Origin: Methanoregula sp.
Lineage (GTDB): Archaea > Halobacteriota > Methanomicrobia > Methanomicrobiales > Methanospirillaceae
NCBI RefSeq assembly: GCF_028712425.1
Contig: NZ_JAQTQD010000019.1
Coordinates: 1-52,331 of the forward strand
Reading direction: 5' to 3'
Length of the DNA stretch: 52,331 nt
The notes under the pieces are model-generated. The model was not told the origin of the DNA. It saw only the letters and a program-made list of their open reading frames with translations, and ran no database searches. Below are positions 6,267 through 47,559 of this stretch, in pieces. How positions within the stretch are numbered: position 1 is the first letter of the stretch; each line of letters opens with the position of its first letter. Both the position numbers and the translations under genes were made by a program.

Positions 6267-7349
6267 ATGGAAGTCCCCCACCTGCCTGAGGGTCCGGAGA
6301 CGATCCATCTCTGGAGCAAGGCCGGGATCATCGTTGTCGACAAGCCTCGCGGACCCTCTAGCCACGAGGTAGCCGCGTGGGTGGGAAAGATGCTGGGGTG
6401 CCAGGTGGGCCACTCGGGCACGCTCGACCCACAGGTATCCGGCGTGCTGCTGGTCATGCTCGGCAACGCCGTCCGCCTTGCCCCGCTCCTGCTCCAGCAC
6501 GACAAGGAATATGTCTGCCTGATGCGGCTGCACGGGGATGTGGACCGGGAGCGAATCGATAAACTCGCAGAGGAGTTCACCGGCCGGCTCTACCAGCGAC
6601 CGCCCCGGAAAAGCGCGGTGAAGCGGAACCTCCGTATCCGCGAGGTCCACAAACTGGAGATTCTCGACGTGGAAGGCCGCCTCGTCCTCTTCCGGGTGCA
6701 CTGCGATGCCGGTACTTATATCCGCTCGATCTGCCACCACATGGGGTTTGCTTTGGGCGTCAGCGCCCACATGGTGGAATTGCGCCGGACCCGCTCGGGC
6801 ACGTTCCCGGAATCGTCGATGTATACCCTGCACGATGTGCAGGACGCAGCTGTTGCGGCACGGGAGGGAGACCGGTCCGCGTTGGAGAAGATGATTGTAT
6901 CTGTCGATGCAGCCGTCCCCGAGCTGCCAATCGTGCTTGTCCGCGATGGGGCAATAGATGCGCTCTGCCACGGCGCCTCGCTTGCCGGCGTGGGCGTGGT
7001 CAATACGATGGAGTTTGCAAAAGACCAGACCGTTGCCGTGCTCTCGGAGAAGAAGGAGTTCATCTGCCTCGGAAAGGCGCTCGTGCCGTCGGGTTCTTTC
7101 AGCCCCGGCGACACCGGGCTTGTCATCGCGCCAACCACGGTCTTCATGCAGCCCGGCACCTATCCCCGTGCCTGGACAAAGTCCGACAAGGTCTACCCGT
7201 CAAAAGCGGAGAAGAAGGCAAAACAAAAAGCGGCAAAGCCGAAGTCCCCGCGTCCCGCGGGAAGATCGGGGAAGCCTGCCGGCAAGAAGTCCTTCGGAAG
7301 ACCTGCCCGGAGACCGGACAACCGGGGCCAGAAGAAGAGATACCATTAA
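6267..7349 (+). CDS. cbf5: tRNA/rRNA pseudouridine synthase Cbf5 (archaeal dyskerin/TruB type)
   Basis: A 360-residue catalytic subunit of H/ACA sRNPs (with Nop10, Gar1, L7Ae) that also makes pseudouridine 55 in tRNA. The N-terminal GIIVVDKPRGPSSHEV and GHSGTLDPQVSGVL carry the catalytic Asp, D54. YQRPPRKSAVKR and RVHCDAGTYIRSICHH are further TruB-family motifs. A PUA domain occupies about residues 215-295. The last 65 residues are an unusual Lys/Pro/Arg-rich tail (KKAKQKAAKPKSPRPAGR...), reminiscent of eukaryotic dyskerin tails and probably RNA-binding. It follows hemD after a single base and is followed by tRNA-Ser. Confidence 0.96.
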   Translation: MEVPHLPEGPETIHLWSKAGIIVVDKPRGPSSHEVAAWVGKMLGCQVGHSGTLDPQVSGVLLVMLGNAVRLAPLLLQHDKEYVCLMRLHGDVDRERIDKLAEEFTGRLYQRPPRKSAVKRNLRIREVHKLEILDVEGRLVLFRVHCDAGTYIRSICHHMGFALGVSAHMVELRRTRSGTFPESSMYTLHDVQDAAVAAREGDRSALEKMIVSVDAAVPELPIVLVRDGAIDALCHGASLAGVGVVNTMEFAKDQTVAVLSEKKEFICLGKALVPSGSFSPGDTGLVIAPTTVFMQPGTYPRAWTKSDKVYPSKAEKKAKQKAAKPKSPRPAGRSGKPAGKKSFGRPARRPDNRGQKKRYH

Positions 7350-7384
7350 AAAAAGCCCCGGCTAACAAATAGGATACACTTTTT

Positions 7385-7468
7385 GCTGAGGTAGTCTAGC
7401 GGTAGGGCGCAGGCCTGGAAAGCCTGTGGTGCGAAAGTGCCTCGGGGGTTCAATTCCCCCCCTCAGCG
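7385..7468 (+). tRNA. tRNA-Ser (GGA anticodon)
   Basis: An 84-nt class II tRNA with a long variable arm. Acceptor GCTGAGG pairs with CCTCAGC, discriminator G; anticodon stem CAGGC/GCCTG closes loop CTGGAAA, giving GGA (codons TCC/TCT); T-arm GGGGGTTCAATTCCCCC. It begins 36 nt after the cbf5 stop codon. A T-rich stretch TTTTATTATTTTTC follows as a probable terminator. Confidence 0.95.
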
Positions 7469-7470
7469 TT

Positions 7471-8290
7471 TTATTATTTTTCTGGTTCGCGTGAGGGGGG
7501 TATCAGGGACACCCCCCTGGCGTTCCGGAAAAAATTCGTGCAGACCCCCCCTGCATGCGGGTGGGGGGGTATCCGAAAGACCCCCTCCCCCCTTTGGCCG
7601 GAACAGACCCCCCGTTACCAGATTTGAGTGGGCCCGGACTGGCAGTCCTCTCCCGGTACCCTCTCTGAAAAGACCCGTGCAGTATTGCGTACATCCCAGT
7701 TTTGAGTTGGGGGGTATCCGGGACACCTCCCCTCCCCTTCCGTTTTCAAAACGATCAGACCCCCACCCTGCCTGACAGGGGGTATCCCGGATCCCCCCCT
7801 TCATGTGGCTGAAAAACCGGAAAAAGGGACAACCGGACCGGATAGCGTGATACTCTTTACGTCGAGGAATACAGGTGTACAGGAAATTGGACCGGGCCGT
7901 GGGAGGTAGGGGGGTATGCGGGAGACCCCCCCCACCATGAAAATTTTAGTGGGGGGTAGCTACCCCTCCTCCAGCAGGACCCACCCCCCTCCATGCCATT
8001 TTCAAACCTGCAGGACAAGACCCCTACCCACCCCTGCCACTGAGGGAGGGGTGGGCTGGGGTCCTTTATTGCACTGGCAGCGAAACCTGTTCACCTGAAC
8101 ATACCGACAGAGCCCTGTTTTTCAGCCAGACCGGAAAACAAAAACGTGGAGGGGTAGCTAGCCCTCCCTTGGCGGGGGGGTGGGTAGGGGTCCCTCATGT
8201 GGTGGGGGGGTCCCTGCTGCCGGATCCGGCCCGGGACAATGAGAAGGGTGGGTACCCCTCCTGCATTTTTCCCGCACCGGGGCCCGTCAA
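7471..8290. repeat. Array of degenerate G-run/C-run palindromic repeats (non-coding)
   Basis: About 820 bp without a credible gene. At least seven copies of a palindromic core, a G5-7 run, then TATCCGGGACA or close variant, then a C5-8 run, occur at 7495-7517, 7563-7585, 7709-7732, 7778-7799, 7909-7933, 7951-7969 (GGGGTAGCTACCCC) and 8149-8167. Spacers share a second submotif, seen as CAGACCCCC preceded by an A/T-rich tract (for example TTTTCAAAACGATCAG at 7743-7758). The same unit recurs at 46996-47260. Long stop-free frames exist only because the sequence is G/C-rich and repetitive. Function is unknown; G-quadruplex or cruciform structure is possible. Confidence 0.8.
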
Positions 8291-8306: not shown

Positions 8307-9020
8307 TTATTGCTCTTCCAGGCAGTTTCTGGCAAAAGCAAGATACTCCGGAACGACCTCGAACCCGAGGAAATGCCTGCCTTCCTGTTTCGCCACCAGC
8401 GCGACTGTGCCGGAGCCGAGGAACGGGTCGAGAACGAGGTCGCCCGGATTGCTTGAGTACAACAGGATCTTCCGGACCAGTTCACGGGGGAGCTTCGTGG
8501 GCGTCTTCTTCTTCCCCTTCCAGTACTCGCGGTTGATCACCCAGACATCCTCGGGATAATGGTCGATCTTGTTGAACGTGTACTGTTCTGGGTCCTTTGC
8601 CACGAAGAGGATGTGATAGTGGCTGGTCACGTATTTCTTCTTCGTGAAAACACCGAACTGGTACTTCCAGATAAGGTGGTTGATGGTGGTGAGCCCCGCA
8701 TCATCGATCCCTTCGAGAATGTCCCGGAGCCGGTTCCACCCGGAAAAGATGTACATGCTGCCGGCCGGAGAGAGAACACGGGCCGCTTCAGCGATCCACT
8801 GGCGCGTGAACTCACCGTACTCTTCTTCCGGCACCTCGCGATAGCCTTCGAGGACATTGGCCCCCTTCCGGTTGTAGTTCAGACGCTGGGCCTTAAAATC
8901 GATGGCAAACGGCGGGTCGGTGACGATGAGGTCGACCGTGCCATCCGGGATGCGGGGGAGAAGTTCGAGCGCGTCGCCCTGGTACAGGGTATCCGGCCGG
9001 AACGCGCCGGGCTTCTTCAT
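8307..9020 (-). CDS. DNA methyltransferase, beta class (N6-adenine or N4-cytosine)
   Basis: A 237-residue stand-alone DNA amino-methyltransferase. Catalytic motif IV, DPPF, lies at residues 35-38 (VDLIVTDPPFAIDFKA) and the SAM motif I equivalent, VLDPFLGSGTVALVA, near residue 196-210 at the C-terminus; this order marks the beta class. D-P-P-F/Y is found in both N6-adenine and N4-cytosine enzymes, so the base modified cannot be called. No restriction endonuclease or specificity gene adjoins it. Its ATG directly follows the iorB stop codon with no gap, so it is probably transcribed with iorAB. Just downstream is the G-run repeat array. Confidence 0.88.
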   Translation of the reverse strand: MKKPGAFRPDTLYQGDALELLPRIPDGTVDLIVTDPPFAIDFKAQRLNYNRKGANVLEGYREVPEEEYGEFTRQWIAEAARVLSPAGSMYIFSGWNRLRDILEGIDDAGLTTINHLIWKYQFGVFTKKKYVTSHYHILFVAKDPEQYTFNKIDHYPEDVWVINREYWKGKKKTPTKLPRELVRKILLYSSNPGDLVLDPFLGSGTVALVAKQEGRHFLGFEVVPEYLAFARNCLEEQ

Positions 9021-24187: not shown

Positions 24188-24202
24188 GATAATCGTAAGA
24201 GT

Positions 24203-24509
24203 GGGGACATGTTCTCGGTCGACTGTACGTTTCTGCGTTCACCAAAGCATTCGTCCTCCGCCCCGTTACCCCATGGGCGCCGGATGTCTGCGGTAAGTCT
24301 GCTCCCTTCCGGGCCTGAACCGGTCCCCGCAGCAACAGGTCGCCATTCCCTCCGGAATTTTGAACACTGGCCATCGACCTCATGGGACGAGGTTTCAACG
24401 TCAGAACACACAGGCTCCCACAGGCCGTTGCAGCCTCGGTCAAACTTCGCCCCCCGCGTACCGACGGTTTCGGGTAACAAGTGACGCCGAGCCACCCGGG
24501 CTAGTCCCC
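24203..24509 (-). ncRNA. Archaeal 7S signal recognition particle RNA
   Basis: About 307 nt. The SRP54-binding helix 8 is plain: on the minus strand GTTCAGGCCCGGAAGGGAGC, with the GGAA tetraloop complementary to 24307-24310, flanked by stem CTGCGG/CCGCAG. The 5' domain has the conserved GTTACCCGAAACCG. The ends pair as GGGGAC (24509-24504) with GTCCCC (24208-24203), which sets the limits given and matches helix 1 of archaeal 7S RNA. Upstream TATA-like sequences are CTTTATTGG (about 24530-24538) and ATAAAAGTATATG (about 24511-24523). End positions could be off by a few bases. Confidence 0.93.
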
Positions 24510-24583
24510 ATATACTTTTATCCACCGGCCAATAAAGGCTTGTTACCTTACGCGGGTTGCGGGTGACGGAACGCGGTTTCCCG

Positions 24584-46608: not shown

Positions 46609-47023
46609 GAAACGCGTGACCGGATCCTGCTGCAGTCCGAAACGGAGGAGCGCTCCCGATTATGAAGAGATGGAGATCCCCGAGCAGATCCAGAAAGATC
46701 TCGAAGCGTGCGGAGGTTTTGATGCGCTCACCAGGAGCATTCCCGCCCGATCGGAACTCGAAGAAGAGGCCCGGATCCATCACGCGCTCGCTGACCCGCT
46801 CCGGCTTACGATTCTCTATCTCATCAGGGATCAGCCGCTCTGCGTCTGTGTCATTAACCGGTTCATGCGCCTGGCAAACTCCAAGCTGTCCTATCATCTC
46901 ACGATCTTAAAGGAAAGCGGCCTGATCGAAGGCGAGAGCCACGGGAACTGGATCATTTATTCCATCACCGAATGCGGGCGCCGGTTGATGCACTGCAGGG
47001 TGGGGGGGTATGATCGGTCCTGA
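46607..47023 (+). CDS. arsR: ArsR-family metalloid-responsive repressor
   Basis: A 138-residue SmtB/ArsR winged helix protein. The metalloid site is in the helix QPLCVCVINRFMRL (C-x-C of the E-L-C-V-C-D-L type), the recognition helix is RLANSKLSYHLTILKESGLI, and the wing GESHGNWIIYSI. An N-terminal SCC and two Cys later could add ligands. ATG 46607 is set by the leaderless promoter. The final residues RVGGYDRS are coded by the edge of the G-run repeat array, so the 3' end was probably remodelled by the repeat. Divergent from the cluster it likely controls. Confidence 0.93.
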   Translation: MKRVTGSCCSPKRRSAPDYEEMEIPEQIQKDLEACGGFDALTRSIPARSELEEEARIHHALADPLRLTILYLIRDQPLCVCVINRFMRLANSKLSYHLTILKESGLIEGESHGNWIIYSITECGRRLMHCRVGGYDRS

Positions 47024-47260
47024 GCGCAACACGGGGGGGTGGTATGCCGGACACCCCCCTCCTCATTTTTGGGAGACGGGCATTATTGCACACGGATTAT
47101 GGATCATGGCTCCGGCGGAGAGAGGGCATCACTATCCTGCTCAAACCCGGGTGAGGGTGGGTCTCTTCCACTCAATGGGGGGAGGGGGCTCCGGGACACC
47201 CCCCCCACCCCAGGAGGGGGGGCGTATGATCGATTTGAAACAAAAGCAGGTGGGGGGTGT
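46996..47260. repeat. Second array of G-run/C-run palindromic repeats
   Basis: Shares units with 7471-8290. Cores: a G7 run with GGTATGCCGGACA and C6 run at 47033-47059; a G-run with CTCCGGGACA and C8 run at 47177-47207; and the second submotif, GGGGG then CGTATGATCGATTTGAAAC, at 47214-47240, which matches reversed 7741-7765 (CTGATCGTTTTGAAAACG). The first G run (47002-47008) lies inside arsR. Apart from arsR's end no gene is present from 47024 to about 47560. Confidence 0.78.
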
Positions 47261-47559
47261 GCCGGTTCATTCGTCCGCAGCGGGTACGAGAGGTGGATGC
47301 CCGATTGCACGTGATACGATCTCCAGGAGGAGGAGCCCGTAACGCGGGCTGCAGTCACACCCTCCGGTGGTTTGTTCTCATACCAGCCGGTTGACCGTCA
47401 AAACAACAATTCCGGCCGGGTATGCGCAGGGAAAACCACCGGGAAAAACCTGCAATGGCTGGTCCGCTGGAAAGACAGGGACACATGGAGGACTCCCCCC
47501 GCCCCGGCATCCCGGGTGAAAAACAAACCGGTAAAAAAGGAGAGATTATTCCCGTATTG
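47261..47559. other. Gene-free stretch, nothing recognised
   Basis: About 300 bp after the G-run array with no RNA fold, promoter or frame that I can support. Ends at a small possible gene on the minus strand. Confidence 0.5.

Follow-up and report, generated by a model that had tools for sequence, protein, structure and literature searches.

The window, by which we mean the whole stretch of 52,331 nucleotides analyzed here (Methanoregula sp., contig NZ_JAQTQD010000019.1), carries at positions 7471-8290 an array of G-runs and C-runs that lies between a tRNA-Ser gene and an N4/N6 DNA methylase gene, exactly as an earlier sequence-only reading of this DNA had placed it. The array is made up of sites of two families, referred to as A and B, and these are listed below together with the neighboring genes and a second copy in the same window.

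6267..7349, strand +: TruB-type pseudouridine synthase gene, left neighbor and synteny anchor
7384..7469, strand +: tRNA-Ser (GGA), conserved left neighbor of the array, beside TruB in 29 of 30 loci examined
7495..7517, strand n/a: family A dyad P1, GGGGGG T N9 A CCCCCC
7540..7551, strand n/a: family A single half-site S1 (GCAGACCCCCCC), from the sequence and alignment with 27 other copies
7563..7585, strand n/a: family A dyad P2, 69 bp after P1
7604..7613, strand n/a: family A single half-site S2 (CAGACCCCCC), from the sequence and alignment of copies
7677..7706, strand n/a: conserved block GTGCAGTATTGCGTACATCCCAGTTTTGAG ahead of P3, from alignments A1 and A2
7709..7732, strand n/a: family A dyad P3 (GGGGGGTATCCGGGACACCTCCCC)
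7756..7764, strand n/a: family A single half-site S3 (CAGACCCCC), from the sequence and alignment of copies
7778..7799, strand n/a: family A dyad P4 (GGGGGTATCCCGGATCCCCCCC)
7909..7933, strand n/a: family A dyad P5 (GGGGGGTATGCGGGAGACCCCCCCC), end of the composite element
7950..8261, strand n/a: family B array of the GGAGGGGT RGS TACCCCTCC type, with sites at 7950-7969, 8148-8167, and 8242-8261
8307..9020, strand -: N4/N6 DNA methylase gene, right neighbor, not specific to array carriers
46997..47263, strand -: second family A copy in the window, partial (P1 to S3), nhmmer 177 bits, after an ArsR-type regulator gene

All five dyads P1-P5 have a center resembling TATCCGGGACA; three fit G5-7 T N9 A C5-7 exactly, and the other two are slightly broken. 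The three single half-sites of this copy read AGACCCCC. The sequence-only reading had counted at least seven copies of one core: the array itself is real, but the count mixes the two families, as it takes in five family A dyads plus three GGGGTAGCTACCCC-like family B sites. The second submotif that it had described (CAGACCCCC) is found near 7541, 7604, and 7756, and related copies read GTTTCAAATCGATCATACCCCCC. With up to three mismatches, the core pattern GGGGGTATCCGGGACACCCCC matched the window 8 times (6 rows at the array and 2 at 47 kb), compared with 0.00 matches expected from 100 shuffles of the window. Two ORFs of ∼112 amino acids run across the array (7437-7775 and 7463-7804), and we take both to be spurious because the repeat period of ∼213 bp and the 145- and 133-bp spacings keep no frame. 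Elsewhere in the window, an archaeal SRP RNA lies at 24201-24511 on the reverse strand (Rfam RF01857, 165.9 bits).

Family B dyads (G4 T N4 A C4, with a 4-bp gap) fill the right part of the window array. Forward matches to this family numbered 14 in the source genome (G000), 9 in Methanoregula formicica (G033), 30 in G061, and 0 in both Methanoregula sp. OWC_0058 (G025) and G011. Family B is related to family A and has repeated spacings of its own (27, 67-68, 93-96, and 102-103 bp). Two further kinds of repeat came to light: beside an array in G018 (positions 1258500-1259250, L173) there is a third, AT-rich intergenic kind with palindromes such as AATCGCGATCATGATCGCGATT, and downstream of tRNA-Ser in G034 (L121), a genome almost without family A, there is a G/C-run array of another sort, containing GGGGGGTAGGGTCCCC and GAGGGGAGGGTGGGGGTCAAAACTTTTTCAAGTGAAGGGGGGG.

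A dispersed composite element in one branch of Methanoregula

Family A is a dispersed, non-coding composite element of ∼450 bp, and the window array represents one of its copies. A genome-wide scan with the core returned 31 forward matches, compared with 1 for a control pattern, and these fell into clusters with recurring internal spacing; hence, the unit recurs at many loci beyond the copy at 47 kb, and the refuting condition set by the sequence-only reading (no unit elsewhere in the genome) does not hold. An nhmmer profile built from six copies matched over most or all of the element in the source genome, M. formicica, and Methanoregula sp. OWC_0058. There are approximately nine family A loci in the source genome, where the contig ends C4 and C45 are counted once in view of their match to L062, and ten in M. 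formicica. Contig C4 stops inside an array, so that arrays break the assembly of the source genome, and its end (L023:3710-3734) holds a sequence that we take to be an Illumina adapter.

The spacing along the element is conserved at ∼69, 145-155, 69, and 133 bp, giving a repeat period of ∼213 bp, and the distances between successive exact dyads group at 68-70, 133-134, and 153-157 bp. Exact G5TN9AC5 sites numbered 16, 15, 51, 22, and 5 in five carriers and 0 in two non-carriers, counts that are not independent because the copies are mutually related; the control pattern was found 0 times in all seven genomes. Among the matches listed, the exact sites lie in array clusters, unlike those of an ordinary operator regulon. 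For the analyses of copies, those with scores under 90 bits were dropped at one step and the truncated L023 and L025 at another. Alignment A1 comprises 28 copies, without L023, L024, L025, L028, L032, L066, L068, L073, L077, and L086 (truncated, weak, or no match), and alignment A2 additionally lacks L062. In A2, the block before P3 reads CATTTTTG in some copies and its reverse complement CAAAAATG in others.

Family A is carried by one Methanoregula branch only. A model built on sequence alone from the 89 best-conserved positions matched 19 of the 39 Methanoregula genomes (E ≤ 0.001) and, across the order, 16 of 232 (E ≤ 0.0001). Of these 16, 15 belong to the genus, and the remaining match is weak and comes from the same taxonomic family. 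In a TruB tree of 30 genomes, which lacks nine of the 39 (no match, or no locus taken), 15 carriers lie on one side, and the exception is a sixteenth, G032, with three weak matches; G011 and G016 are Methanoregula species without arrays. The TruB matches L125 (G021) and L126 (G018) each contain one in-frame TAG. No family A match was found in 72,556 plasmid and 50,697 phage records, and two viral contigs share only one palindrome with the element. A scan of a contig collection gave 10 stretches, nine from Methanoregula sp. OWC_0058 and one from an Oscillospiraceae MAG, which we take to be a chance match. In the open-licence literature, we found no account of such elements in Methanoregula, which does not imply their absence from print.

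Several copies occupy orthologous intergenic positions, as judged by both flanks: the window copy and L087; L027, L071, and L079; L024, L069, and L086; and L023+L028 and L062. Further copies were paired between species by one flank. The spacer after tRNA-Ser holds G-run arrays, at 391-840 bp, in G000, G061, G025, G002, G019, G020, G021, G018, G062, and G030, and is without arrays or has remnants only, at 27-179 bp, in G033, G029, G016, G027, and G005. The M. formicica spacer measures 179 bp and lacks the family A array, indicating that a locus can lose its array. Together with a ∼213-bp unit that is present in G021 and missing from its sister G018 (L178-L181 yielded no sister pair), this bears out the variation in array length that had been proposed. 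The tRNA gene, on the other hand, had been suspected as an integration spot, and this finds no support as the cause: among the loci of the source genome looked at, only the window array adjoins a tRNA, the flanking genes scanned include no integrase family, and at the tRNA-Ser site, the array is inherited in several species.

In a tree of the 28 copies, the 13 copies from Methanoregula sp. OWC_0058 formed one clade (54% of bootstraps), and L029 paired with L031 and L063 with L064, that is, by genome, although judged by flanks L029 belongs with L063 and L031 with L064. Over the full length, L029 and L063 were most alike (0.884). The conflict between the tree and the full-length likeness suggests that copies are mosaic, as after gene conversion. 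The elements sit at orthologous sites between species but resemble copies of their own genome: they are old, vertically inherited, and homogenized.

Half-site conservation and competing explanations

To describe the dyads, we used G-run/C-run pairs with gaps of 0-40 bp from five species and a mixed set, of which 120 of 213 had a gap of 9 bp, the nine bases themselves being variable. Taken over 143 dyad centers, the consensus (M T S C S G S A K) is symmetric. Nevertheless, partner positions showed no compensation: positions 1/9 were Watson-Crick pairs at a frequency of 0.350 compared with 0.368 in shuffled sets, positions 3/7 were complementary less often than shuffled (0.273 versus 0.430), and positions 2/8 and 4/6 were near the shuffled values (0.720 versus 0.644 and 0.692 versus 0.655). 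Such a pattern would be expected if each of two subunits accepted variants in its own half independently of the other. Comparison of copies between species revealed fewer changes in half-sites than in spacers, both between G000 and G033 (0.114 versus 0.282, p = 1.5e-11) and between G000 and G025 (0.148 versus 0.483, with centers at 0.451), and marginally between G018 and G021 (0.034 versus 0.055, p = 0.052), figures that are biased toward half-site conservation because the half-site class is defined by runs and the aligner matches runs. The difference between half-sites and centers was not significant (p = 0.31 and 0.11). Between the sisters G021 and G018, the whole element diverged by 0.049, like other intergenic DNA (0.045), compared with 0.084 at third codon positions.

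Because the 9-bp gap is fixed while the center varies and the half-sites evolve slowest, we tentatively favor the explanation that the arrays serve as a multi-site platform for a putative dimeric DNA-binding protein, a reading held at slightly under even confidence. Each G6T half-site would be read by one subunit of this putative sequence-specific dimer, and the packed sites might allow cooperative loading of many dimers into a chromosome-anchored nucleoprotein complex, with a role in chromosome organization or partition rather than in control of a single gene. Gene conversion between arrays could then keep the sites matched to a protein drifting between species. The positions common to species, the clustering of the exact sites listed, the lack of a shared function among flanking genes, and the confinement of carriers to one side of the genus tree are consistent with such a platform; the sister-species rates, which are like those of other intergenic DNA, the loss at loci, and the existence of array-free species speak against it.

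The main rival, favored by the sister-species rates, is that family A is functionless, self-homogenizing repeat DNA, which we regard as a serious possibility, if a somewhat doubtful one. Such DNA would go back to a single spread in the branch's ancestor, would have persisted in intergenic gaps that tolerate insertions, and would owe the likeness of its copies to gene conversion and unequal exchange among them. The grouping of copies by genome and not by orthologous site, the loss of one ∼213-bp unit in G018, and the lineage-specific DNA that abuts the array at 4 of 8 sister loci all fit this account, which does not, however, predict that half-sites and the 9-bp gap are kept from G000 to G021 and G062 despite changing centers and spacers. 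The same lineage-specific DNA is the starting point for the quite improbable view that the arrays are attachment or recombination platforms for foreign cassettes, that is, hotspots of genomic plasticity. The inserts or replacements within 400 bp at 4 of 8 G021/G018 arrays compare with 2.0 at random intergenic points (p = 0.039, from a crude null); several of the segments are of low GC and hold PD-T7-4-like, nucleotidyltransferase-HEPN, and HEPN genes (L176, L177, L173, L168, and L169), suggesting defense or toxin-antitoxin cargo, and a RhuM-type gene lies beside one array of the source genome (L030). In addition, the M. formicica locus L064 combines flanks of two source-genome arrays (L025 and L031), the left from one and the right from the other, as if a rearrangement had crossed the element. 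Against this, the other four sister loci have no inserts, the far insert junctions inspected hold no array sequence, GC around arrays is only slightly low, and the scan of flanking genes showed no recombinase. The idea is only suggestive. The flanking genes share no function (they include those for 2-oxoacid oxidoreductases, Kdp, surface proteins, transporters, a release factor, and a helicase), and the methylase was rejected as a partner of the array because relatives occur in 24 of 39 genomes, array-free ones included.

That the arrays act as a structured non-coding RNA or an RNA-level regulatory element appears very unlikely. The intergenic location and the conserved blocks of primary sequence would suit an RNA, but RNAalifold on 28 copies gave -21.8 kcal/mol, covariation contributed -0.23 kcal/mol, and one of the 13 pairs showed double changes, the reverse strand being similar and no better; no Rfam family matched the array at its gathering score, with sub-threshold matches only at E up to 1; and the flanking ORFs are convergent, tandem, and divergent, as far as crude gene calls tell. 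Structures at the DNA level fared similarly: the suggestion that the G-runs form quadruplexes finds no support in the 20 motifs counted in 28 copies, which are not in excess of the 18.8 found in shuffles, and the proposed cruciforms are not borne out by the dyad halves, which change without compensation (143 centers). Finally, intergenic palindromes in composite arrays call to mind REP/BIME-type elements mobilized by a RAYT (Y1) transposase, but to this origin we can give hardly any credence. Y1_Tnp was found in 5 of 39 genomes and, among carriers, only as one weak match in G018; there are approximately ten loci rather than hundreds, and exact dyads number 5-51 per carrier genome, that is, not more than 100; and the 143 centers lack the complementary mutations that REPs are described as keeping in their palindromes (PMC2817692).

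Returning to the putative dimeric protein, we noted a second Orc1/Cdc6 homologue, of 374 amino acids and highly conserved, at a distance of 1-6 kb from an array in all six carriers examined, namely G021, G018, G062, G000, G033, and G025 (L164, L165, L188, and L185-L187), with the array directly upstream of the gene in G021, G018, and G062. As this is one syntenic neighborhood, it should be counted as one event or two, not six. A bolder version of the platform explanation, which we consider rather unlikely, is a clade-specific chromosome-organizing system, in which a dedicated dimeric protein, possibly this Orc1/Cdc6-type initiator encoded near one array, would act on approximately ten fixed G6T-N9-AC6 arrays to fold or partition the chromosome, with gene conversion matching both.

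Overall, family A is unusual in that its geometry and its chromosomal addresses are fixed across species and yet its copies are homogenized. To our knowledge, detailed analyses of dispersed non-coding repeats in archaea cover few families. If the arrays are a protein platform, then they point to a new chromosome-binding protein in methanogens; if they are functionless, then they offer a clear-cut example of dispersed archaeal repeats evolving in concert. For M. formicica, an isolate is available (SMSP).

Comparison with known systems

The sites of SegB, of the SegAB partition system, are likewise palindromic and scattered over an archaeal chromosome, and they are protein-bound; their motif, TCTAGA-S-TCTAGA, is described as lying mostly inside genes (PMC12284271). 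TCTAGA occurs 0 times in 32 family A elements with flanks, and SegB sites were accordingly rejected. With REP/BIME elements, as described in PMC2817692, family A shares short intergenic palindromes, regularly spaced composite arrays, and genus-specific flavors, and REP/BIME elements are reported there as binding sites of several proteins. Family A differs from them in its approximately ten loci, its ∼213-bp period, its fixed 9-bp gap without compensation, and its fixed orthologous positions. REP/BIME with RAYT was rejected as tested, there being no RAYT in carriers bar the weak G018 match.

Archaeal origin recognition boxes (ORBs) have a G-string beside the recognition site, a feature that family A shares, but the order of the G-run and GAAAC in ORBs is the reverse of that in the array, most arrays lie well away from orc genes, and no ORB dyad was recognized by eye in the arrays. 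In bacterial parS clusters and iteron arrays, multiple dyads or half-sites at fixed spacing load an oligomeric protein. Family A resembles these in its dyads and half-sites at fixed spacing and differs from them in its many loci and its archaeal host.
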